42,772 bases of DNA from a virus: IMG/VR virus record IMGVR_UViG_3300006076_000007, positions 1-42,772 of that record. One strand, written 5' to 3'. The notes under the pieces were generated by a model. It searched no databases. It saw nothing but the letters and a program-made list of their open reading frames with translations, and was not told where the DNA came from. Positions 3,291 through 41,780 of this stretch are shown piece by piece. A program made the translations under genes and the position numbers. Each line of letters begins with the position of its first letter. Position 1 is the stretch's first letter.

Positions 3291-5636
3291 TTAAGATACT
3301 GTAGCAGTTGCATTACCTGTAACTACACTATTATCATAAAGAACAACAGAGCTAGTAATTAGAGCATTACCTGCTGCAACACCACTAACATTTCCTGTAG
3401 AATCTACAGTTGCTACATCTGTATTATTAGAATACCAGCTTGAAGAGCTAGTTATATCTTCTTGTGAATTATTCCAGTTACCATTAGTATATTCTGCAGT
3501 AGCAATTAATTGATAAGAATCATTAACTCCTAAGCTAAAGTCTGAAGGGTTAATAGTAATAACTCTAACTACTGGAGTATTATCTATACTAATATTAATA
3601 CTAGATTCAAATAGATTCCCAGAATCATCATATAACATTGCCTTAACAGGTATATCTGAATAAGAGTTACCGCTAGAATTTTGTGTAGTACATCTCACTA
3701 GTCCACCATCAGAACCATCTGTTATTGTATATGCAGCATCATTAGAAGATACCCAATCAACTGAGTTAGTTACATCTACTGTAGATTCTGATAAATTTCC
3801 CTCTGAGTCTATCACATTATATGTAGCAGTACATATAAGTTGTCTCACAGCATTTTCTTTTTTATTATCTATAATACCACCTACAGGATCTATAACATTA
3901 ATTCGAAGTAGTGTAGCACCTGATCCAAGGTAGTATCCACAGTCAATATCTACTTCACTAGCTCTTTTCCATATTCTAGAACCATCTGCATTACTGATTA
4001 GGATCATTCCGTCTACTTGAGGTATCCCTAAGTTATCCTCTTTTAGTCCTATCATGTCTTTTAGTACTACACCTTGATATGCACTAAGAGGATTGGCTTG
4101 TTTATGTAATTTATCATTATTATCAGTAGGATCTGTAATATTATCTATTACTTCTAAATTCTCTGTAAGTGTACTATCCACCCAAACTCTAGTTCCATCT
4201 TTAAGTGATCCTAGTATCATATTATCTTTATATGGAGCTCCTAGATTATCCTCTTTACCTGGTATAGTTCCGTCCGGAGAACCATTAACATCCATCTCTA
4301 AAGAAGATATAGAATTTAGAATAGATGCATTCTGATCGAGTAGATGTGTAATATTAGCAGAATTATTCTGAACAGCACTTTTATTGCTTTGTATATCACT
4401 ATTTTGTTGAGCTTGTTCTTGTTTAATATTAGATATATCTTGTGTATTAGTTGCTATATTGGCTGAGTTAGAATCAATTAGAGATCTATTAGTATCAATA
4501 TCATCTCGTAAACTAGAATCTACACCATCTAACCTGATAATCTGATTATTTAAGTTCGTTATATCTCCAGTATTAGTATTAACCTTATTTTCTAGAGTAT
4601 TAATATCACCATCTATAGAATTTATTCTAGATCCTAAAGTACTAATATTATCTGAATTTATATTTATTTTAGTTAAATTACTAGATACATTAGAGGTATT
4701 AGTATTAATTTGAGATTGTAATCCAGTTATATTAGTATTAATTACTGCAATATTATCGGAATTAGATGTAATTCTAGAATCAAACGCTGAGTAATTTCCT
4801 TCTACAACTGTTACTCTACTTTCTAATGTTACTGAATTGATATTACCGATTTGAGTCTGGATAGAAGATATATTACCTTCATTAGTACTAACCCTTGCTG
4901 TAATATTAGATATATCTGAATCTAAACTAGTATCTTTATTTTGAAGAGCTGTAATATCTGCTTCTATATTATTTACAGATTGAGTTAAGCCTGTATTACT
5001 AGTTTCAAGGCTAGATATTCTAGTAGAGTTGCTATTTATATTAGTCTCTAACTGAGTATCTTTATTTTGAAGAGAAGGAATTTTATTACTATTAATATCA
5101 TTAATATCTGATTCTATAGTATTAATTCTACCTGTATTAGAACTTATATTAGTAGTATTAGAAGAAACACTAGATGAAATACCTGATAAATTAGAATTAA
5201 TAGTATTAATAGATGCTATATTGTTATTAACCTTTCCGTCTAATACTCGACCTTGATTTGCAGAAAGAGCATCAGATGCACTGTTAGAATCTAGAGCATC
5301 ATATACATTGACTTGAGTTATAGATGGAAGATCTCTCCAGATTTTTCTTCCCCCTGCATCTATAGAAAGAACTTGATCTGTATTTCCGATACCTAGAGAA
5401 TCCTCTTTATCTCCTATATCAATTATAGCGGATGAAATTTTTTCATCTAATACTCGACCCTGATTTGCAGAAAGTGGTACTTGAGCATTAGTAGATATAA
5501 GATTATCTTGTATATCTGTAATATCCACCTCTTCATCAAAAATAGAGCGGACGAAAATTCTTAAATCTGATGCAGTAATTTCATTATTAACATTATCGGG
5601 AAATAGACTTAAGATATAATCTCTTGAATTAGCCAT
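3291..5636 (-). CDS. Long coiled-coil tail fibre with C-terminal Ig-like (Big-2-like) domain
   Basis: A 781-residue fibre protein. Residues 1-40 (ILSLFPDNVNNEITASDLRIFV) are a docking domain shared with the genes starting at 12490 and 17061. Residues about 120-480 are a low-complexity region rich in Asn, Ser, Ile and Asp with a heptad-like Ile/Leu pattern (NINSNSTRISSLETSN), typical of a trimeric coiled-coil shaft. The motif SANQGRVLD occurs twice near the N-terminus and a related form near residue 520. The end (VVRVITINPSDFSLGVNDSY, then VATVDSTGNVSGVAAG) fits a Big-2 immunoglobulin-like domain, often used for surface binding. A late promoter lies 27-34 bases upstream and AAGGA precedes the ATG, so this is the first gene of its unit. 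Confidence 0.85.
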   Translation of the reverse strand: MANSRDYILSLFPDNVNNEITASDLRIFVRSIFDEEVDITDIQDNLISTNAQVPLSANQGRVLDEKISSAIIDIGDKEDSLGIGNTDQVLSIDAGGRKIWRDLPSITQVNVYDALDSNSASDALSANQGRVLDGKVNNNIASINTINSNLSGISSSVSSNTTNISSNTGRINTIESDINDINSNKIPSLQNKDTQLETNINSNSTRISSLETSNTGLTQSVNNIEADITALQNKDTSLDSDISNITARVSTNEGNISSIQTQIGNINSVTLESRVTVVEGNYSAFDSRITSNSDNIAVINTNITGLQSQINTNTSNVSSNLTKININSDNISTLGSRINSIDGDINTLENKVNTNTGDITNLNNQIIRLDGVDSSLRDDIDTNRSLIDSNSANIATNTQDISNIKQEQAQQNSDIQSNKSAVQNNSANITHLLDQNASILNSISSLEMDVNGSPDGTIPGKEDNLGAPYKDNMILGSLKDGTRVWVDSTLTENLEVIDNITDPTDNNDKLHKQANPLSAYQGVVLKDMIGLKEDNLGIPQVDGMILISNADGSRIWKRASEVDIDCGYYLGSGATLLRINVIDPVGGIIDNKKENAVRQLICTATYNVIDSEGNLSESTVDVTNSVDWVSSNDAAYTITDGSDGGLVRCTTQNSSGNSYSDIPVKAMLYDDSGNLFESSINISIDNTPVVRVITINPSDFSLGVNDSYQLIATAEYTNGNWNNSQEDITSSSSWYSNNTDVATVDSTGNVSGVAAGNALITSSVVLYDNSVVTGNATATVS

Positions 5637-5662: not shown

Positions 5663-5670
5663 TATTTATA
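5663..5670 (-). promoter_or_regulatory. Late promoter TATAAATA (minus strand)
   Basis: Exact T4-type late element on the minus strand, 27-34 bases upstream of the coiled-coil fibre gene. It lies between that gene and the DUF2061-like gene. Confidence 0.75.
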
Positions 5671-5674
5671 AATT

Positions 5675-5914
5675 CTAAGAGCTTAATCTACTATATTTCC
5701 ATCGAATATAAACTTCTTCTATATTTCCTTCTATTTTAGACCAAAATGTATCAAAGTAATAATAAAATAGTGTTGCTGCAGACATATCTACTAGTGCTAT
5801 ATTAAGAGCAGTAAATGGCTCTCCTGTTGTAATTAAACCTGCTATAAATACTATACATATACGAATTATTCTATATATTATAGCCTTTATTACTAGAAAT
5901 TTAGGTTTACTCAT
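5675..5914 (-). CDS. Small membrane protein, DUF2061-like
   Basis: A 79-residue protein with two hydrophobic helices at about residues 8-27 and 34-52, separated by a short TTGEPFTALN turn. The pattern (K-x3-RI, then ITTGEP-x3-AL-x-IAL-x-D, then TLFYYYFDTFWSKI) fits DUF2061, a small two-helix membrane family. The end (EEVYIRWKYSRLSS) is likely cytoplasmic. The ATG overlaps the stop of the APS kinase fusion gene as ATGA, so translation is coupled and the protein probably acts with that enzyme at the inner membrane. The specific role is unknown. A small holin is the main alternative, but the family resemblance and the coupling argue against it. Confidence 0.6.
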   Translation of the reverse strand: MSKPKFLVIKAIIYRIIRICIVFIAGLITTGEPFTALNIALVDMSAATLFYYYFDTFWSKIEGNIEEVYIRWKYSRLSS

Positions 5915-6765
5915 AACTCATCTTTAAGAAATTTAAGTACTTCCTCATTTGCTAAATATTTTTTAGCAAAAGCTTCATCTCCTTCTTCTATAGCTTTTCT
6001 AATCTTTGTAGCACTTATGTGTCCAATTCTAGGAACGAAGTGTAATCTGATGCTATTATTATCTATACTTCTCTGAAATTTTTTTATAACTACAGGATTA
6101 CCCTGTACAACGATATCATAATCTTCTACAAATTTCTCCCATTTTTCATTAGGCTCGTCTATATCTGGAGATTGAATTACATTATATCCCATATTTCGAA
6201 GTAATTCTATATTTTTATCTAAATCTAATTTATCCCCCTCGTCTACTCTTAATGCAATAGTAATATTAGGACTTAATCTTTTAGCCTCTTCTAGGACAAT
6301 TTTATGACCTCTATGCATTCCTTGAAATCTAGCAATTACTAGAACTTTTTTGAATATTTTTTCATAAAATGTCTTAGCAGAAAACTCAGTAAATTCAATT
6401 TCTAAATCTGCATCACTATAGTCAGCTTGGAAATTTTTATTATATCCTAAATCTTCTTTATGGTTTGGACCTGAATTTGTTATAACTACTTGAATATCTC
6501 TTTCATCTAGATACTGATCTCTAATCTCTTTAATAGGGGCCTGCATTGCAATAAAAACCGTAAATCCTAAATCGGATAACCATCTAGCTCTAGAGTATCC
6601 TAAATGAATATTCATCTCTCTTCCATTAAAAGATATATCTGTATTAGATGTCTCTGCTCTAAGATCATCCCCATCGATTATAAAACTATCCGGAACTATA
6701 GATTCTAGCGTCTCGGCAATTGTAGTTTTTCCTGCTCCTGCCTTTCCTAATAATGCTACTATCAT
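5911..6765 (-). CDS. APS kinase fused to an HxGH nucleotidyltransferase
   Basis: A 284-residue two-domain enzyme. Residues 1-135 look like adenylylsulfate kinase: Walker A GKAGAGKTT at 7-15, the DGDDLR motif at 31-36, and the helix NGREMNIHLGYSRARWLSDLGF. APS kinases phosphorylate APS to PAPS, the universal sulfate donor. Residues 138-284 are a compact nucleotidyltransferase, with ARFQGMHRGH at 145-154 (HxGH active site) and ISATKIR at 250-256. That domain resembles NMN/phosphopantetheine-type adenylyltransferases more than classical ATP sulfurylase. In a fusion with APS kinase it could still supply APS from ATP and sulfate; this is inference. Both ends overlap neighbours as ATGA (sulfotransferase upstream, DUF2061-like downstream), which suggests one coupled cassette. 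Confidence 0.8.
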   Translation of the reverse strand: MIVALLGKAGAGKTTIAETLESIVPDSFIIDGDDLRAETSNTDISFNGREMNIHLGYSRARWLSDLGFTVFIAMQAPIKEIRDQYLDERDIQVVITNSGPNHKEDLGYNKNFQADYSDADLEIEFTEFSAKTFYEKIFKKVLVIARFQGMHRGHKIVLEEAKRLSPNITIALRVDEGDKLDLDKNIELLRNMGYNVIQSPDIDEPNEKWEKFVEDYDIVVQGNPVVIKKFQRSIDNNSIRLHFVPRIGHISATKIRKAIEEGDEAFAKKYLANEEVLKFLKDEL

Positions 6766-7505
6766 TTTTTCTCCTTGTTTTTAATATATTCACTAATTGT
6801 AATCAAATTGTCTTCATTAAAATCCTCTATTAGATCATAATAAAGGGAGTGAGAGTATTTAACTAATTTTTTAGAATCTTCTGAGATATATTCTTTCTTA
6901 TTTTTAGTTTTATTAATGTGAGGAATTTTAATATTGAATTCTTTCTCTATAATATCCAGCCGATTCATTGGAATGAAGATACAATCTCCCATAGGTCTCA
7001 TAAACCACTCATATAGTGAACAATTAAACTGATTCATAGATTTTTCATCACTTGGGTAAAAATCACTTTCAAAGTAAGAAGTAATAAAATGAATATTTCC
7101 TTGAGATCTTAATAAATTTCTAAATACTCTCGCTTTATTAGGATACTTAGTTAGAGTATCCTTAAAATTAATACTTCTTTGTATAAATTCATTAATATCA
7201 ATAGGATAAATATAACCGTCTCCTTTAGGATCATTTAACATAAAGCTAAGATATCCTTCTACATTAATAAAAAAATTATAAAAAGACTCATACCAGGAAT
7301 GAGGCTCTCTGATAATAACAAACTTTGGATATTTTTGAAATTGTTCTGGTAAGTTTCTGATATGAACATGCCTTTGATTTACATGTACTTTATAGTCTAA
7401 ATATTTATTAGATGCAGTTATAATACCTTGATGAATTGAAATTCCTGCTGTTTTAACAGGATGCATTAATGTTTTAATTTGATTATCAAATTCTACTGTG
7501 TACAT
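6762..7505 (-). CDS. PAPS-dependent sulfotransferase family protein (first copy)
   Basis: A 247-residue protein with the two PAPS-binding signatures of sulfotransferases. The 5'-phosphosulfate loop is HPVKTAGISIHQG at about 15-27, close to the PKTAGTS form of polysaccharide sulfotransferases. The 3'-phosphate site is VIIREPHSWYESFYNFF at about 63-79, with the expected Arg and a Ser. There is no signal peptide, so it should act in the host cytoplasm. It lies between the HAEG-repeat adhesin and the APS kinase fusion, whose start it overlaps by ATGA. Its ribosome-binding site (AGGA in GTAGGACTTAAATG) lies inside a perfect 13-bp inverted repeat, so translation is probably controlled. The substrate is unknown; candidates are the adhesin or a host surface sugar. 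Confidence 0.75.
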   Translation of the reverse strand: MYTVEFDNQIKTLMHPVKTAGISIHQGIITASNKYLDYKVHVNQRHVHIRNLPEQFQKYPKFVIIREPHSWYESFYNFFINVEGYLSFMLNDPKGDGYIYPIDINEFIQRSINFKDTLTKYPNKARVFRNLLRSQGNIHFITSYFESDFYPSDEKSMNQFNCSLYEWFMRPMGDCIFIPMNRLDIIEKEFNIKIPHINKTKNKKEYISEDSKKLVKYSHSLYYDLIEDFNEDNLITISEYIKNKEKK

Positions 7506-7550
7506 TTAAGTCCTACTCTTTTTATCTATTATATAATGTAGGACTTAAAT
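7504..7550 (-). promoter_or_regulatory. Perfect 13-bp hairpin covering the sulfotransferase start
   Basis: 7504-7516 and 7538-7550 are exact reverse complements (ATTTAAGTCCTAC / GTAGGACTTAAAT) with a 21-base AT-rich loop. On the minus strand the second arm contains the AGGA ribosome-binding site and the first two bases of the ATG of the downstream sulfotransferase. Read-through RNA would hide the start. The loop contains TATAAT-like sequence, so RNA starting inside it would leave the start open. T4 uses this design for lysozyme e and soc. It may also act as a weak terminator after the adhesin. Confidence 0.75.
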
Positions 7551-7555
7551 TAGGC

Positions 7556-10057
7556 TTAAACTGTAGCACCTGTTGCGTCTATCCAATCTGAACCATTGTA
7601 CCAAATAGGCTTATTAAGCTCTGTATCTAAATAAGCTTGACCTACAGAAGGATCTGATGGTCTAGAACCTGTTGCACCCGCTAATTCTACATACTCTTTA
7701 GTAACTAAAGATCTGCTAGTATTAATTAGTGTCGTTGATAATTCAGGTGCAACTAAACGCCCATCTATATAAATTTCAAAAGCATTCTTTCTATCTGAAT
7801 CAGATGTTCCTATACCTGTTTCATGAATTGTATCTGTAGCTGTTCCTACATTAAACATCCCCTCAGCATGTGAAGCCTTATTTATTGCTTTTGTAAGATT
7901 TCCTTCAGCATGAGATGCATAACCTGTAGCATAGTTACAATAACCTTCGGCATGAGCTGAGCAGTTTGTAGCATATGATTTATAACCTTCGGCATGAGCT
8001 GCATAACCAGTAGAATGAGAACAATATCCTTCAGCATGAGCTGCAAAACCTGTAGCATATACCATTTTTCCCTCAGCTTGTGCATATTGTCCTGTAGCAT
8101 ATGACTGATATCCTACTGCAAAAGAAAACGTACCTGTAGCTTTACTACCTCCTGCTAAATTAACAGCATTAATACCTAAAGTATCTGAAGAAAGTCCTGG
8201 AATTCTGTATCCATCTCCATCCTTAACTAAACATCCTCCACTTGCATCTACATACTCTTTAGTAACTAAAGATCTATTAGTATTAATTAGTGTCGTTGAT
8301 AATTCAGGTGCAACTAAACGACCATCTATATAAATTTCAAAAGCATTCTTTCTATCTGAATCGGATGTTCCTATACCTGTTTCATGAATAGTATCTGTAG
8401 CTGTTCCTACATTATACATCCCCTCAACATGTGAATTATTCACAGTAGCTGTAGTATGATAGCCCTCGGCATGTGAATTAACCCCAGAAGCTGTAGCATT
8501 AGACCCCTCAGCATGTGAATTAATTCCTGAAGCTGTAGTATTAGACCCCTCAGCATGTGAACTACACCCTGAAGCGACAGTACAATACCCTCCAGCATGT
8601 GAATTATATGCAGAAGCTACAGTACAATATCCTTCGGCATGAGAATTATATTCTGAAGCTACAGTATGATAACCCTCAGCATGTGAGTTATATCCTGAAG
8701 CTGTAGAATACCCACCTTCGACATGTGAGTTATCTCCGGAAGCTGTAGTACAACGACCTTCGGCATGAGAATTATCATTAATAGTAGTAGTACTTTCACC
8801 CTCAGCATGTGAGTTATCTCCAGAAGCGACAGTACTATTACCCTCAGCATGTGAGTTATCTCCAGAAGCGACAGTACTATTACCCTCAGCATGTGAGTTG
8901 CGTTCTGAAGCTGTAGTACAAAGACCCTCAGCATGAGAGTTATCTTCAGAAGCTATAGTACAATAACCTTCGGCATGAGCTGCTTCTCCGGAAGCTGTAG
9001 TACAAAGACCTTCGGCATGAGAATTGCGCTCCGAAGCTGTAGAATACCCACCTTCAGCATGAGAGTTATATCCTGAAGCTGTAGAATACCCACCTTCAGC
9101 ATGTGAATTACGCTCCGAAGCTATAGTATGATACCCCTCGGCATGAGCGTTACTATCTGAAGCTGTAGAGCCTTCTCCTTCAGCATGAGCTGCTTCTCCG
9201 GAAGCCTCAACACGAAAACCTTCGGCATGTGAATTAATTCCGGAAGCTGTAGTACAATATCCCTCAGCATGTGAATTATATCCTGAAGCTGTAGTATTAT
9301 ATCCCTCGGCATGAGAACTCTTTGCTATAGCTAGAGTATGAAGACCTTCGGCATGAGCTGCTTCTCCAGAAGCTGTAGTATTATATCCCTCGGCATGAGA
9401 ACTCTTTGCTATAGCTAGAGTATGAAGACCTTCGGCATGAGCAGAAAGTCCGGTCTTTGTAATATTAGTAATTTCTGTCGTATTAGGTAATATTGTATTA
9501 GCATCTATAGTATTTCTACTGATCCCCAGTCTAACATATTGACCTATATTAGTACTATTATTAGAAGGTTCTCCTGAATTTCTAAACAGAATAACATATG
9601 TTTTATCTACCGAATCATTATTAGTGATCTGACCATATTCTGACCAATTTCCAGTATTATTATCTTGATCAAATGATGTTAAATAAGTATCTTCTCCTAC
9701 AGTCATACTCGAATCATATACATATATTGTAGAATTTACTTTATTAATTTCTAATCCCTCTCCTGTAGCCATTGCACAATATATTGACTCACCTGGACTC
9801 AACGTTATTGGTTGAGATGCATAGCCTTGAGTACTATTAAAATACGTGATAATATTGGTATCAAGAGGAATAGTAATTGTATTAATTCCAATTACTACGT
9901 CAGATATAAATCCTGTAGAATTTTGATATCCTTCAGCATGAGATGCAAATCCGTATGCACTAGTTTCCTGACCTGAGGCAAATGTATTATCATCTGCCGC
10001 TAGTGTTTTATTACCTATTGCATATGAATATGTTCCAACAGCTCCTAATAAATTCAT
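7556..10057 (-). CDS. Giant HAEG-repeat (YadA-head-like) adhesin or tail fibre
   Basis: An 833-residue structural protein built of about 32 units of 14 residues with consensus SHAEGYxTTASGxN. This is the beta-roll repeat of YadA/Hia-type trimeric adhesin heads. Order: a short head repeat region, an inserted beta domain at about 50-190, about 25 tandem HAEG units, a beta module (NAFEIYIDGRLVAPELSTTL, then SLVTKEYVD), about six more units, the same module again, then the fibre-tip ending SRPSDPSVGQAYLDT / WYNGSDWIDATGATV. Cysteines recur at one position (YCT, LCT, RCT) in many units, so they may stack along the roll. Tyrosine often follows the acidic HAEG. A late promoter lies 31-38 bases upstream and AAGGA precedes the ATG. 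It is flanked by sulfotransferase genes on both sides. Confidence 0.85.
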   Translation of the reverse strand: MNLLGAVGTYSYAIGNKTLAADDNTFASGQETSAYGFASHAEGYQNSTGFISDVVIGINTITIPLDTNIITYFNSTQGYASQPITLSPGESIYCAMATGEGLEINKVNSTIYVYDSSMTVGEDTYLTSFDQDNNTGNWSEYGQITNNDSVDKTYVILFRNSGEPSNNSTNIGQYVRLGISRNTIDANTILPNTTEITNITKTGLSAHAEGLHTLAIAKSSHAEGYNTTASGEAAHAEGLHTLAIAKSSHAEGYNTTASGYNSHAEGYCTTASGINSHAEGFRVEASGEAAHAEGEGSTASDSNAHAEGYHTIASERNSHAEGGYSTASGYNSHAEGGYSTASERNSHAEGLCTTASGEAAHAEGYCTIASEDNSHAEGLCTTASERNSHAEGNSTVASGDNSHAEGNSTVASGDNSHAEGESTTTINDNSHAEGRCTTASGDNSHVEGGYSTASGYNSHAEGYHTVASEYNSHAEGYCTVASAYNSHAGGYCTVASGCSSHAEGSNTTASGINSHAEGSNATASGVNSHAEGYHTTATVNNSHVEGMYNVGTATDTIHETGIGTSDSDRKNAFEIYIDGRLVAPELSTTLINTNRSLVTKEYVDASGGCLVKDGDGYRIPGLSSDTLGINAVNLAGGSKATGTFSFAVGYQSYATGQYAQAEGKMVYATGFAAHAEGYCSHSTGYAAHAEGYKSYATNCSAHAEGYCNYATGYASHAEGNLTKAINKASHAEGMFNVGTATDTIHETGIGTSDSDRKNAFEIYIDGRLVAPELSTTLINTSRSLVTKEYVELAGATGSRPSDPSVGQAYLDTELNKPIWYNGSDWIDATGATV
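7686..7874 (-). repeat. 189-bp duplicated fibre module, copy A
   Basis: Matches 8247-8435 with about seven mismatches over 189 bases. It encodes the module with IYIDGRLVAPELSTTL and TKEYV plus the NVGTATD lead-in. Near identity, including silent positions, implies recent duplication or gene conversion within one gene. Confidence 0.9.
8247..8435 (-). repeat. 189-bp duplicated fibre module, copy B
   Basis: Second copy of the module at 7686-7874, at the internal end of the long HAEG array. The two copies each close one block of HAEG units. Confidence 0.9.
8799..8882 (-). repeat. Exact tandem 42-bp duplication within the HAEG array
   Basis: 8799-8840 and 8841-8882 are identical. Each encodes one 14-residue unit, SHAEGNSTVASGDN read with its neighbour. 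The surrounding units share the 42-bp period but differ, so this pair is the youngest expansion. Confidence 0.9.
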
Positions 10058-10087
10058 CTTCTATTCCTTATAATTGATTTCTTAAAA

Positions 10088-10095
10088 TATTTATA
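10088..10095 (-). promoter_or_regulatory. Late promoter TATAAATA (minus strand)
   Basis: Exact late element 31-38 bases upstream of the HAEG adhesin start. It probably drives adhesin, sulfotransferase, APS kinase fusion and DUF2061-like gene. Confidence 0.75.
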
Positions 10096-10176
10096 GTATT
10101 ACCCTGCTTGATATATCTAATTTAATCATAATAAATATTCTGATCTATTAAGTATGTAATTAAGATATTGATATTA

Positions 10177-10875
10177 CTAATATTCATCTTTTTGATATCT
10201 AAATTTTTTAAATAATTCCTTATCTTTTTGATAAATTTTTTCTTTCTGATATTCTTTTAATTTAAAATCTTTAGTTTCAGTTACATTAGATTTTAATAAT
10301 TTTTTATCCATACCTATATAATTTAAAAATTGAGGGATATCTGACTCTATTTTAAATATTCTATGATTATCGGGTACTAACTTATCAAACATAAATTGAT
10401 AAAAGGAGCCTATAAAATCCTCCGGTTGTAGTTTATTAAGTGGTTTATCATAAAACCACGAGTTCAGAAAATCTCCTCTACTACCAAGTTCTCTCACAAA
10501 AGATTTAATAAGATGAGGATATTTTTTAAAAAAAGCAGGAAGATCTAACATAGCTTCGAGCCAAGAATCAAAATCTTTCAATTCTGAATAAAAGCTATTA
10601 AATTTAGAATTACGTTCAACTACTGTAGATAATGTATTAATAGTATGAATTCCTTTATGATGGTTATATAGGGATTCGTAAAAATGATATGGATTTCGTA
10701 CTATTACTAAAGATTCATAGTTTTTTGCAAAATCGGCAGCTGCCAGAGTAAACTTAGAATCATGCTCTGTAATTTTTTTTAAATTATCCATATCATATTT
10801 AATAAGAGTTTGTCTTAAGGAAGTTCCTGCACACCTAATTAAATGTGGTATTATAAATGTTTTATATATTAGCAT
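10177..10875 (-). CDS. Second sulfotransferase-like protein
   Basis: A 232-residue protein with the same two-signature layout as the sulfotransferase at 6762-7505: IPHLIRCAGTSLRQTL at about 9-24 for the phosphosulfate loop and VIVRNPYHFYESLYNHH at about 57-73 for the 3'-phosphate site. The usual Lys of the first loop is Arg here (LIRCAGTS), which may lower activity or change specificity. The sequence otherwise differs greatly from the first copy, so this is an old paralogue or a separate acquisition. It is the last gene of the unit that begins near 12490 and sits directly upstream of the HAEG adhesin. The C-terminal 50 residues are very basic (KEYQKEKIYQKDKELF). No signal peptide. Substrate unknown. 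Confidence 0.65.
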   Translation of the reverse strand: MLIYKTFIIPHLIRCAGTSLRQTLIKYDMDNLKKITEHDSKFTLAAADFAKNYESLVIVRNPYHFYESLYNHHKGIHTINTLSTVVERNSKFNSFYSELKDFDSWLEAMLDLPAFFKKYPHLIKSFVRELGSRGDFLNSWFYDKPLNKLQPEDFIGSFYQFMFDKLVPDNHRIFKIESDIPQFLNYIGMDKKLLKSNVTETKDFKLKEYQKEKIYQKDKELFKKFRYQKDEY

Positions 10876-18032: not shown

Positions 18033-19706
18033 CTATGAAAGAATATATACTAGTTGTCCTGAATCATAAATCATTCTATAATTATTTTCTAGCATATTCT
18101 GAATTTCTGTTTTATTCTCATCAAATTTATCTAATTTATTCTTTAATTTATATTTTTGAAATTTTTCTCTAGGGTATAGTATGTTCTTACCTTGTCTAAA
18201 GTAACTATAATTAGGATATGTTTTGTGAGAAAAATCAAATCCTAATTGTTTATATAGATTACCTGTAGACCAAGATCTATTAGCATAGCTAATAATAGAA
18301 CCTTTATACCTACTCCTAAAATATTTTAATAATTTTGATGCTCCGCCTATAATAGAGGTATCTAGACAATTAGAAAATCTTATAATTTCATAATCATATC
18401 TCTTATTATATCTGGATTTCATAAATGTCATTACAGATACTAATTCGCTTTTATAGAAAAGACCAAGTTTAATAGATGATTTAGCATTACCTTGAAGGTG
18501 AGTTTCTTCTAGAAATTTTCTACTCTCATCTAAAGTAATTTCTCTGATAATACACTTTCTAGCAAATATTCTCTCAGATTTTCCTAGCTTATTTTTAATT
18601 ACAGATTTCCAAATATCTTTTTTATTTTTCCACGAGTCTTCATATATATGAAGAAGCTGAATATTATATTTTTCTGCTATTTCAGTTTTAGTTAAATGTC
18701 TTTCTCTATTTTTTTTATTATTCTCTTTATTAAATCTAGAGAAACTACTAATACCTATAGAATGATCCATTAATCCATTAAATTCTATCGCTAGATTATA
18801 ATCGGGTAAATAAATATCAAACTCTTTATTATCAAATCTCTTTCTATAAATTATATTATATATATTTAAAGATTTAATAAATTCAGAAATTTCTACCTCG
18901 TATTTAGAAGATCCTTTAGCACATAAAGAACAACCATTACCATTCATATGATTATCTATTCTTTGAGTAAATTCTCCATGTTCAGGACATATTATTTTAA
19001 TATTTTCGTCTATTCTATTATGAGATATAAATTTTGAGTAATCATACTTATCTCCGTGAGTTTCTCTAAATCTTAGGATAATATCCTCATGTAATAATCT
19101 ACTATTTTCTGCAAATATATCAAAACTACAACTGGGACATCCATACTCTATAAGATCCGGAAGAGATTTATAAAATTTTCCATGTTTTTTACATAATATA
19201 GGAAATTTAGTAAGGTAATTTTCATATTCCTCAAATCTTACTAGAGATAGATCAAAATTAAGTTTTTCTAATTCTTCTATATATTTATTAAAGGTTTTTA
19301 ATTTTTGATTTTTATTAGATTTTATTTTAGAGCATTTAGGACAACCCGATCCAGATATATGACTAGATGGTAGTTGCCAAAAGTCACCATGTTCTATACA
19401 TTTTATTTTTATTTTTTTATTAAAACCTTTATATGTATCTCTATAATATTCATAATGATTATGAACTTCTTCTGATCTTTTTTTAAATTCATCAAAATCT
19501 ATTTTTCTAGTTTCATTAGATTTTTCTGCAGAGCATCTTTTACAATCAAAACCCTTTAAATGACTATTAACTCGCTGAATAAATTCTCCATGAATTGGAC
19601 ATATTATAGTGATTTTATCTGAAACTTTTTTAAAGGATACTTTAGAGTAGTCAAATTTATTATTATGAATATATGATGATTGTTGTATAAATTCTTTTAT
19701 AGTCAT
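18033..19706 (-). CDS. Free-standing homing endonuclease (zinc ribbons plus Vsr/PD-(D/E)xK-type nuclease)
   Basis: A 557-residue protein. Four zinc-ribbon units each combine C-x2-HG-x-F with a C-x2-C pair: C36-C58, C103-C125, C172-C193 and C240-C262 (CPIHGEF, CIEHGDF, CKKHGKF, CPEHGEF). Residues about 270-340 form a Vsr/PD-(D/E)xK-like nuclease core (FDNKEFDIYLPDYNLAIEFN). The last 190 residues (FLEETHLQGNAKSSIKLGLF, then SYANRSWSTGNLYKQLGFDF) match the C-terminal part of Hef/MobE-type homing endonucleases of T4-like phages. Such enzymes cut an intron-less or insert-less allele to spread their own gene. It lies between the sheath terminator and the capsid-fold gene. No good ribosome-binding site precedes its ATG, consistent with weak or regulated expression. 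Confidence 0.85.
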   Translation of the reverse strand: MTIKEFIQQSSYIHNNKFDYSKVSFKKVSDKITIICPIHGEFIQRVNSHLKGFDCKRCSAEKSNETRKIDFDEFKKRSEEVHNHYEYYRDTYKGFNKKIKIKCIEHGDFWQLPSSHISGSGCPKCSKIKSNKNQKLKTFNKYIEELEKLNFDLSLVRFEEYENYLTKFPILCKKHGKFYKSLPDLIEYGCPSCSFDIFAENSRLLHEDIILRFRETHGDKYDYSKFISHNRIDENIKIICPEHGEFTQRIDNHMNGNGCSLCAKGSSKYEVEISEFIKSLNIYNIIYRKRFDNKEFDIYLPDYNLAIEFNGLMDHSIGISSFSRFNKENNKKNRERHLTKTEIAEKYNIQLLHIYEDSWKNKKDIWKSVIKNKLGKSERIFARKCIIREITLDESRKFLEETHLQGNAKSSIKLGLFYKSELVSVMTFMKSRYNKRYDYEIIRFSNCLDTSIIGGASKLLKYFRSRYKGSIISYANRSWSTGNLYKQLGFDFSHKTYPNYSYFRQGKNILYPREKFQKYKLKNKLDKFDENKTEIQNMLENNYRMIYDSGQLVYILS

Positions 19707-40305: not shown

Positions 40306-41250
40306 ATGTTAGATATTGACTCAGTATTAGAGTTAGAAAAAGAATTAGAAAAAAGTCTTAATATATATCTTCCTGAACCTATAATTAATTCGGAATTAAT
40401 ACTCTTTAATAACTCAAAACTTTTAAAAAACTTTATTTCTAATAATACTAATAAACTAACTAAAAATGTTACTCCTTATGGAGTAATAAATCCAGGCCCA
40501 GGTGAAAAAATTATACAGACCTCGAGGCTTTCAAGGTTATATAATAAATTAGTATTTCTTACTTCGACTCCTAAATATAATGCTCAATATATAGATGAAA
40601 TAAATACTCTACGAAATAAATATATAGATTTAGAAAAATCTTCAGAGAAGGGTCTTCAGAAAACTAAAAGAGAAGTAAGAAATAGAATAAAAGATCTTAG
40701 TTCTAAAACATATATAAACAGAGATCCCAATTATTTTGGAGAAATGATGTTAATTATTATTAACAATATTTTAACACGACCTAACTTCTCCGGCTACTCA
40801 TATAAGAACGAAATGAAATCTTTAGCAATTGAACATATTCTAAAATATACCTGGCGATTCTCTCCATATAAACAATCTAAGATAACAGGTCAATATGTAT
40901 CAGCATTTACATACATTAGTACTATATGCTTTAATGCTTTCGTAGCTACTATTAATAGTCAAAATAAAGAGATTAAGAAATCTAAAGAAGATTTTATAGA
41001 AACTCAAAAAATGAGATATTCAGATATTAGAAGTTCTAAAATTACTCCAGAATGCTCATCTATCGATAAAACAGTAAAGATAGTTAATATAAAGAATAAA
41101 TTAATAGATGAAATTAAAAAAATTCCAATAGATGCTAGAGATATTTTAGTACAATATCCTAGTGAATATAAAATAGATATGGATGAATATGAAAAGATAA
41201 CTGATTTTTCAGAATCTAATAATATTAATTTAAGTATTGAGAGGTTTTAG
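40306..41250 (+). CDS. 55: Late-transcription sigma factor, gp55-like
   Basis: A 314-residue protein, longer than T4 gp55 (185). The core at about 160-215 (YKNEMKSLAIEHILKYTWRF, then YVSAFTYISTICFNAFVATI) matches the region-2-like helices of gp55, which replaces host sigma-70 and recognises TATAAATA. The many such elements in this window agree. The N-terminal 60 residues (VLELEKELEKSLNIYLPEPI) and a middle stretch with LSRLYNKLVFLTSTPKYNAQ are extra and may include contacts to polymerase or to gp33. AAGGA seven bases before ATG. Followed without a gap by gp49. Confidence 0.75.
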   Translation: MLDIDSVLELEKELEKSLNIYLPEPIINSELILFNNSKLLKNFISNNTNKLTKNVTPYGVINPGPGEKIIQTSRLSRLYNKLVFLTSTPKYNAQYIDEINTLRNKYIDLEKSSEKGLQKTKREVRNRIKDLSSKTYINRDPNYFGEMMLIIINNILTRPNFSGYSYKNEMKSLAIEHILKYTWRFSPYKQSKITGQYVSAFTYISTICFNAFVATINSQNKEIKKSKEDFIETQKMRYSDIRSSKITPECSSIDKTVKIVNIKNKLIDEIKKIPIDARDILVQYPSEYKIDMDEYEKITDFSESNNINLSIERF

Positions 41251-41780
41251 TGAGTAATTTAATAGAGATGTCCTATAGTGATATTAAAAAACTTAAAGAA
41301 AAACTATGGCTTGAGAATAATGGAAAATGTCCATTATTAGGAATAGAGATTCCTTTAGATAAAATAGTATTAGATCATATTCATAAACTAAAATCAGAAG
41401 ATCCTTCAGAACAAAAAGGAACTATAAGAAATGCAATAGAATTCAGAGCAAATTCAATTGAAGGACGGATTTCTAATAGCTGGAAGAGATATTTTGGAGC
41501 AGATATTAACAATCACCCCATAGATCTTCCTACATTCTTAAGAAATTTAGCGGATTATTTGGAGGAGGGTGCATATTCAGATAGTGATGGAAACTATTAT
41601 ATTCACCCAACAGAAATTAAAAAAGAACCTAAATTATCTAAAAGGGTATTTAATAAAATAGCAAAATTATATAGAGAAGAATATCCAAAGAGAAAACCAC
41701 TCGAATATCCTAAAAGCGGAAAGGCTACTAAAAAAATTAAAGAATTATCGGAAAAATATAAAATAAGTTTGGAGAAATAA
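41250..41780 (+). CDS. 49: Recombination endonuclease VII, gp49-like, lacking zinc cysteines
   Basis: A 176-residue protein, T4 gp49 is 157. The catalytic His-Me core is present: LDHIH at 41-45 (D42, H43, H45) and N68 in FRANSIEG, in line with T4 D40, H41, H43 and N62. The C-terminal DLPTFLRNLADYLEEG and NYYIHPTEIK match the T4 dimer part. The enzyme resolves branched DNA before packaging. T4 endonuclease VII holds a zinc ion with two CxxC pairs. Here only C27 remains, and FRANS replaces the second pair. It starts with GTG overlapping the gp55 stop (TAGTG), with GAGG upstream. Confidence 0.85.
   Translation: MSNLIEMSYSDIKKLKEKLWLENNGKCPLLGIEIPLDKIVLDHIHKLKSEDPSEQKGTIRNAIEFRANSIEGRISNSWKRYFGADINNHPIDLPTFLRNLADYLEEGAYSDSDGNYYIHPTEIKKEPKLSKRVFNKIAKLYREEYPKRKPLEYPKSGKATKKIKELSEKYKISLEK

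Follow-up and report, generated by a model that had tools for sequence, protein, structure and literature searches.

Why would a tailed phage carry, around the gene of a giant repeat adhesin, genes that resemble those for making and using an activated sulfate donor? The question is raised by positions 5675–10875 of IMG/VR virus record IMGVR_UViG_3300006076_000007, which was analysed over positions 1 to 42,772 (the whole 42,772-nucleotide stretch is called the window below). The source virus is a T4-like myovirus, with a sheath protein akin to those of Vibrio and Campylobacter myoviruses and a gp6-like baseplate wedge protein. Our analysis suggests that the locus is probably a late-expressed phage cassette for sulfotransferase-type group transfer, with a donor of the 3'-phosphoadenylyl sulfate (PAPS) type being likely. 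The original prediction had placed two sulfotransferase-like (ST) proteins, an adenylyl sulfate (APS) kinase-like fusion, here named KinNT, and a DUF2061-like membrane protein around an adhesin with HAEG repeats. All of these elements were found on the minus strand, and they are given here with the flanking promoter sequences in the order of transcription:

10177–10875, minus strand: ST2, the second sulfotransferase-like protein, 232 residues (ten-member family alignment; match of the ST from locus L012).
10088–10095, minus strand: T4-type late promoter core TATAAATA, 31 nt ahead of the HAEG fibre gene (motif position).
7556–10057, minus strand: HAEG-repeat tail fibre or adhesin with YadA_head repeats, 833 residues (Pfam PF05658, 1.1e-18; PHROG 25468, 5e-80).
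6762–7505, minus strand: ST1, a sulfotransferase-fold enzyme, 247 residues (family alignment, AlphaFold2 model, Foldseek).
5911–6765, minus strand: KinNT, 284 residues, with an APS-kinase-like domain (residues 1 to ~130) and a HIGH-type nucleotidyltransferase (residues ~139 to 284) (Pfam and NCBIfam, PDB profile search, AlphaFold2 model, Foldseek).
5675–5914, minus strand: DUF2061 small membrane protein, 79 residues (Pfam PF09834).
5663–5670, minus strand: the next late promoter core, just past DUF2061, heading the next fibre gene at 3291–5636 (motif position).

The ATGA overlaps said to join three of the genes were read directly in the sequence, at ST1/KinNT and at KinNT/DUF2061. The adhesin also agreed with its description: its 833 residues include 28 exact HAEG motifs, and it is of the YadA type, with nine YadA_head stretches.

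The neighbourhood of KinNT, ST and DUF2061 genes is not a product of chance. Scans of 2.9 million viral contigs yielded nine intact KinNT loci, the window counted; one to three ST genes are present at seven of them (the window, L002, L004, L007, L011, L012 and L014, with the ST gene of L007 in pieces), and DUF2061 is encoded at eight. These neighbourhoods span T4-like myoviruses and a phage whose tip protein is lambda-J-like (L012), and because the gene order varies between loci, the linkage is not merely the recent shared descent of one block. Moreover, a search of the whole records of phages of 281, 183 and 140 kb revealed ST genes only at the KinNT locus. Fibre-type genes adjoin the cassette in the window, L002, L007, L011 and L013, and glycosyltransferase, Stealth-like and SDR genes adjoin it in L004 and L014. 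The whole ST family was too divergent to serve as one alignment for the viral scan and was split into subfamilies, and the scans of the viral contigs with these gave no further complete locus; likewise, tblastn of ST1 and ST2 against 50,697 phage records showed no match at E 0.01. A cellular origin of KinNT was considered as well; a single pattern-based scan of 84,980 cellular genomes revealed no relative of KinNT, which excludes only fairly close ones. Outside the nine intact loci, a 235 kb phage record (L013, 8001–8743) contains a broken KinNT beside an ST remnant, which we regard as a decayed cassette.

The first half of KinNT is APS-kinase-like by sequence and by fold, as had been proposed. 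Residues 2–84 match Pfam APS_kinase (PF01583) with 27.6 bits against a cut-off of 21.1; relatives score up to 38 bits, and the cut-off was passed by all six KinNT members scanned, including that of the window. A profile of the nine-member KinNT alignment found APS kinases and PAPS synthetases among the PDB sequences, with E-values down to 3e-7. The best PDB match of the AlphaFold2 model (predicted local distance difference test, pLDDT, 88.8) in Foldseek was human PAPS synthetase 1 (PAPSS1), and the other matches in the top 50 were APS kinases, PAPS synthetases and T4 polynucleotide kinase. The P-loop GKAGAGKT, D31GD33 (within DGDxLR), R36, R49 and N52 are kept in the nine proteins, R49 and N52 being the Arg and Asn of the motif DRxENIRR, whose second RR is lost.

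The second half of KinNT (residues ~139–260), to which the original prediction had given no name, is a HIGH-type nucleotidyltransferase domain with the motifs ARFQGxHxGH and S[GA]TxxR. A kinase followed by a nucleotidyltransferase is also the order of domains in animal PAPS synthetase. The nearest solved relatives of this half are an archaeal nicotinamide mononucleotide (NMN) adenylyltransferase of the NadM type (2e-7) and the glycerol-3-phosphate cytidylyltransferase TagD (5e-7). An assignment to ATP sulfurylase was tried and rejected, as HHalign aligned only the shared SGTxxR end with a probability of 31%; the ATP sulfurylase profile PF01747 gave no match in the window KinNT or in the scanned relatives.

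The relationship with NadM would suit a NAD-salvage enzyme, made of a riboside kinase and an NMN adenylyltransferase and located near ST genes only incidentally. The NadM-type profile TIGR01527 does match all nine KinNT proteins, that of the window below its cut-off, and distant kinase–nucleotidyltransferase fusions (PHROG 10255) in Clavibacter phage 33 (L015, 3989–4726) and Stenotrophomonas phage DLP6 (L017, 6998–7729) are accompanied by no ST or DUF2061 gene in the stretches read. We consider such a role quite improbable, however, as the kinase half matches APS kinases, none of its 50 best PDB fold matches is a nicotinamide riboside kinase, all nine proteins carry LR.D..D...L..N in place of the NadM segment SHTxxNPFTAGER, and the linkage with ST genes recurs in seven loci.

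The match to TagD bears on the main rival explanation, in which KinNT makes a 3'-phosphorylated donor other than PAPS and the ST-fold enzymes pass on the group that it carries, e.g., a phosphoramidate-like group linked to CDP or ADP, as used for the Campylobacter capsule. Besides the resemblance to a cytidylyltransferase, it is favoured by the best kinase-type NCBIfam match of the window KinNT, the subfamily PRK05541, which stands narrowly ahead of the apsK equivalog. However, the surroundings of the cassette showed no glutamine kinase or amidase partners, the fold and the profile matches of the ST proteins point to sulfotransferases, and we found no evidence here that phosphoramidate transferases share the ST fold. 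Another 3'-phosphonucleotide is a possible product of KinNT, and this explanation as a whole appears unlikely.

Judged from its domains, the likely product of KinNT is PAPS. Sulfate is taken as the substrate on pathway grounds, because the fused partner is of the APS kinase type and the neighbouring genes encode sulfotransferases. A more specific version of this reading, which we put forward tentatively and with some doubt, is that KinNT would be a small, self-sufficient PAPS synthetase, with a NadM/TagD-like domain in place of ATP sulfurylase, used late by tailed phages together with dedicated sulfotransferases to sulfate the receptor-binding apparatus of the virion or the glycans that it meets.

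Both ST proteins had been credited with PAPS-binding signatures, which applies fully to ST1 and in part to ST2. In the alignment of ten family members, H15, G21, S23, H46, R66, S74 and N198 are invariant and Lys18 is present in nine, and the invariant residues match the PAPS-loop and 3'-phosphate signatures of PAPS sulfotransferases. For ST1, the alignment predicts a PAPS-loop K18xAGxS (K18TAGIS), H46 and a 3'-phosphate site R66..S74. ST2, which is matched by the ST of L012 at 1.9e-18, has Arg at the position of Lys18, unlike the other nine members, and may be impaired or specialised. The Pfam Sulfotransferase profile matched neither ST1 nor ST2 of the window alone, and their identity follows from the family and from the fold: the member from L014 reaches Pfam Sulfotransfer_1 with 23.6 bits against a cut-off of 22, and when the ST1 model (pLDDT 85.8) was compared with PDB folds, 49 of the 50 best matches were PAPS sulfotransferase-family proteins. 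Among the fold matches listed, the highest TM-score belongs to HS6ST, a sulfotransferase of the carbohydrate type. The ST1 of L011 matches PHROG 3347 'Galactose-3-O-sulfotransferase' at 0.0013.

The supposed late expression of these genes is supported by the placement of the sequence TATAAATA, the core of T4 late promoters. It occurs 22 times in the window, compared with 22.5 expected by chance, so that only the placement and not the count is exceptional. Fourteen copies, spread along the entire window and over both strands, lie 13–55 nt upstream of same-strand gene starts, that of the HAEG fibre gene among them, whereas random placement gave a mean of 0.6 and a maximum of 4 in 10,000 trials. 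For control permutations of its letters with at least 10 copies, the best proportion before gene starts was 36%, against 64% for TATAAATA itself. With one copy ahead of the HAEG fibre gene and the following one immediately beyond DUF2061, the fibre, ST1, KinNT and DUF2061 genes look like one late transcription unit.

Viral cysC genes are already on record and have been read as sulfate assimilation (PMC8438041), and by the same reasoning the kinase of the cassette would serve auxiliary metabolism by feeding the assimilatory sulfate reduction of the host. We find this highly improbable, since the genes sit in a tail-fibre operon headed by a late promoter sequence and none of the cassettes has a recognised PAPS reductase beside it, ST genes being present instead.

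The last gene of the unit was correctly named, as its product scores 37.1 bits in Pfam PF09834, where the cut-off is 23.1. Of 80 cellular cysC loci fetched with an APS kinase query, 18, in Bacteroidota, have DUF2061 68–107 bp ahead of cysC and in the same orientation, with one fusion. In 198 Bacteroidota genomes drawn evenly, DUF2061 was present in 22, with cysC or cysD within 1.5 kb in 14 of these. A cellular open reading frame (ORF) fusing DUF2061 to APS kinase was observed in a Bacteroidetes metagenome-assembled genome (L093, 5448–6347). DUF2061 was rejected as proof of a sulfate function, as the link is strong in Bacteroidota and not elsewhere, and it is kept as support only.

Several observations weigh against a cassette built around PAPS. 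The nucleotidyltransferase half of KinNT is closer to NadM and TagD than to ATP sulfurylase, whose motifs QxRNPxHxxH and GRDHAG are absent from it; KinNT has ARFQGxHxGH and VQGNPxV. The claim that the phage makes its own sulfate donor holds as far as the APS-kinase-type kinase and the recurrent cassette are concerned, with PAPS itself as the presumed product. In the kinase half, the canonical lid KGLYKKAR and FTGIxxPYE are gone, and a shorter N.K...GYN.NF..DY segment is found instead. The kinase half is also far under the cut-off of the NCBIfam apsK equivalog (25.6 vs. 138.7 bits). The fold matches of ST1 are remote, with a best E-value of 0.009, and the 130 kb record L006 encodes KinNT and DUF2061, with no ST of this family found in the record. 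Finally, DUF2061 stands beside sulfate-activation genes in only one of 14 genomes in the gammaproteobacterial sample and in none of seven haloarchaeal plasmid loci, and for the phage DUF2061 proteins the sulfate type is not the best-scoring one.

In the mechanism that we propose for the cassette, the nucleotidyltransferase half of KinNT would form a nucleotidyl anhydride, most likely APS, and the kinase half would phosphorylate its 3'-OH, most likely yielding PAPS, from which ST1, and perhaps ST2, would transfer the sulfuryl group to an acceptor. DUF2061 would act as an accessory membrane protein. The benefit for the phage could be an altered receptor or adhesin, or the control of superinfection and re-adsorption.

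As the acceptor, a surface glycan, either in the envelope of the host or on the virion, is the most likely candidate, and it is favoured because of the glycosyltransferase neighbours and the carbohydrate-type matches of the ST proteins (HS6ST). The original prediction had named both a host surface glycan and the adhesin; the glycan fits better, and the evidence suits glycans of host and virion alike. The HAEG fibre protein is the less likely acceptor, and we judge it rather unlikely that PAPS is the donor and that the adhesin itself is sulfated on Tyr, Ser or Thr. The position of the fibre gene directly upstream of ST1, with a common late promoter, and the 13 Tyr residues that follow a HAEG-type motif in the window fibre would agree with such a substrate. 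However, the stretches fetched for the cassettes of L004, L012 and L014 contain no HAEG fibre, and HAEG fibres are present in Flavobacterium and Verrucomicrobia phages that lie outside the records with KinNT or ST matches.

Three further features of the window were observed. A 557-residue DUF723/zinc-finger, homing-endonuclease-like ORF is located within the tail gene cluster (18033–19706, minus strand), and an Endonuclease VII-like ORF lies at 41250–41780 on the plus strand; a similar-looking ORF follows just past KinNT and DUF2061 in L006 (9323–9985). A perfect 9-bp tandem repeat at 1044–1118 codes for a GSS-type linker in the protein at 384–1217.

The making of an activated-sulfate-type donor combined with group transfer to a cell or virus surface is a chemistry not yet known from phages, and an operon that lies behind a late promoter among the tail-fibre genes and pairs ST enzymes with a dedicated donor maker offers a concrete function that can be tested. 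Should the donor be PAPS, the nucleotidyltransferase half would represent a new route to APS, and if the acceptor is on the virion, a new virion modification would be at hand. No account of a cassette of donor maker and sulfotransferase in phages was found in the full texts searched, which include few subscription papers. Sulfotransferases and CysC have each been recorded in phages, and the linked cassette appears to be undescribed.

Among the known systems, animal PAPS synthetase (PAPSS1/2), the source of the best PDB fold match, resembles KinNT in having a HIGH-superfamily nucleotidyltransferase after an APS kinase domain. KinNT differs in its length (284 residues vs. about 620), in having no Pfam ATP-sulfurylase domain or Sat motifs and in its shortened kinase lid. 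Cj1415 of Campylobacter is APS-kinase-like. The Campylobacter MeOPN pathway (Cj1415–1418) likewise uses a 3'-phosphorylated nucleotide donor, there a non-sulfate one, for the decoration of a surface glycan (PMC11800397), but it relies on separate enzymes, is CTP-based and starts from glutamine, and such partners were not seen beside the cassette. In the cysC-cysD-cysN-cysQ loci of Bacteroidota, DUF2061 adjoins the APS kinase gene as it does in the cassette, and the ATP sulfurylase is a separate CysDN. The APS kinase fold is also present in viral CysC (PMC8438041; the LR756500 APS kinase in L016; Ralstonia phage phiRSL1); the CysC of L016 is a canonical single-domain protein with 205.7 bits to TIGR00455, whereas KinNT is divergent and fused. 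Sulfotransferase-family proteins are likewise encoded in other phage genomes, as PHROG 3347 and as the Sulfotransfer_3 genes of OM43 phages, whose function is unclear (PMC10580990). Unlike these, the ST genes described here are linked to a donor-making fusion and to DUF2061 in a tail-fibre operon.

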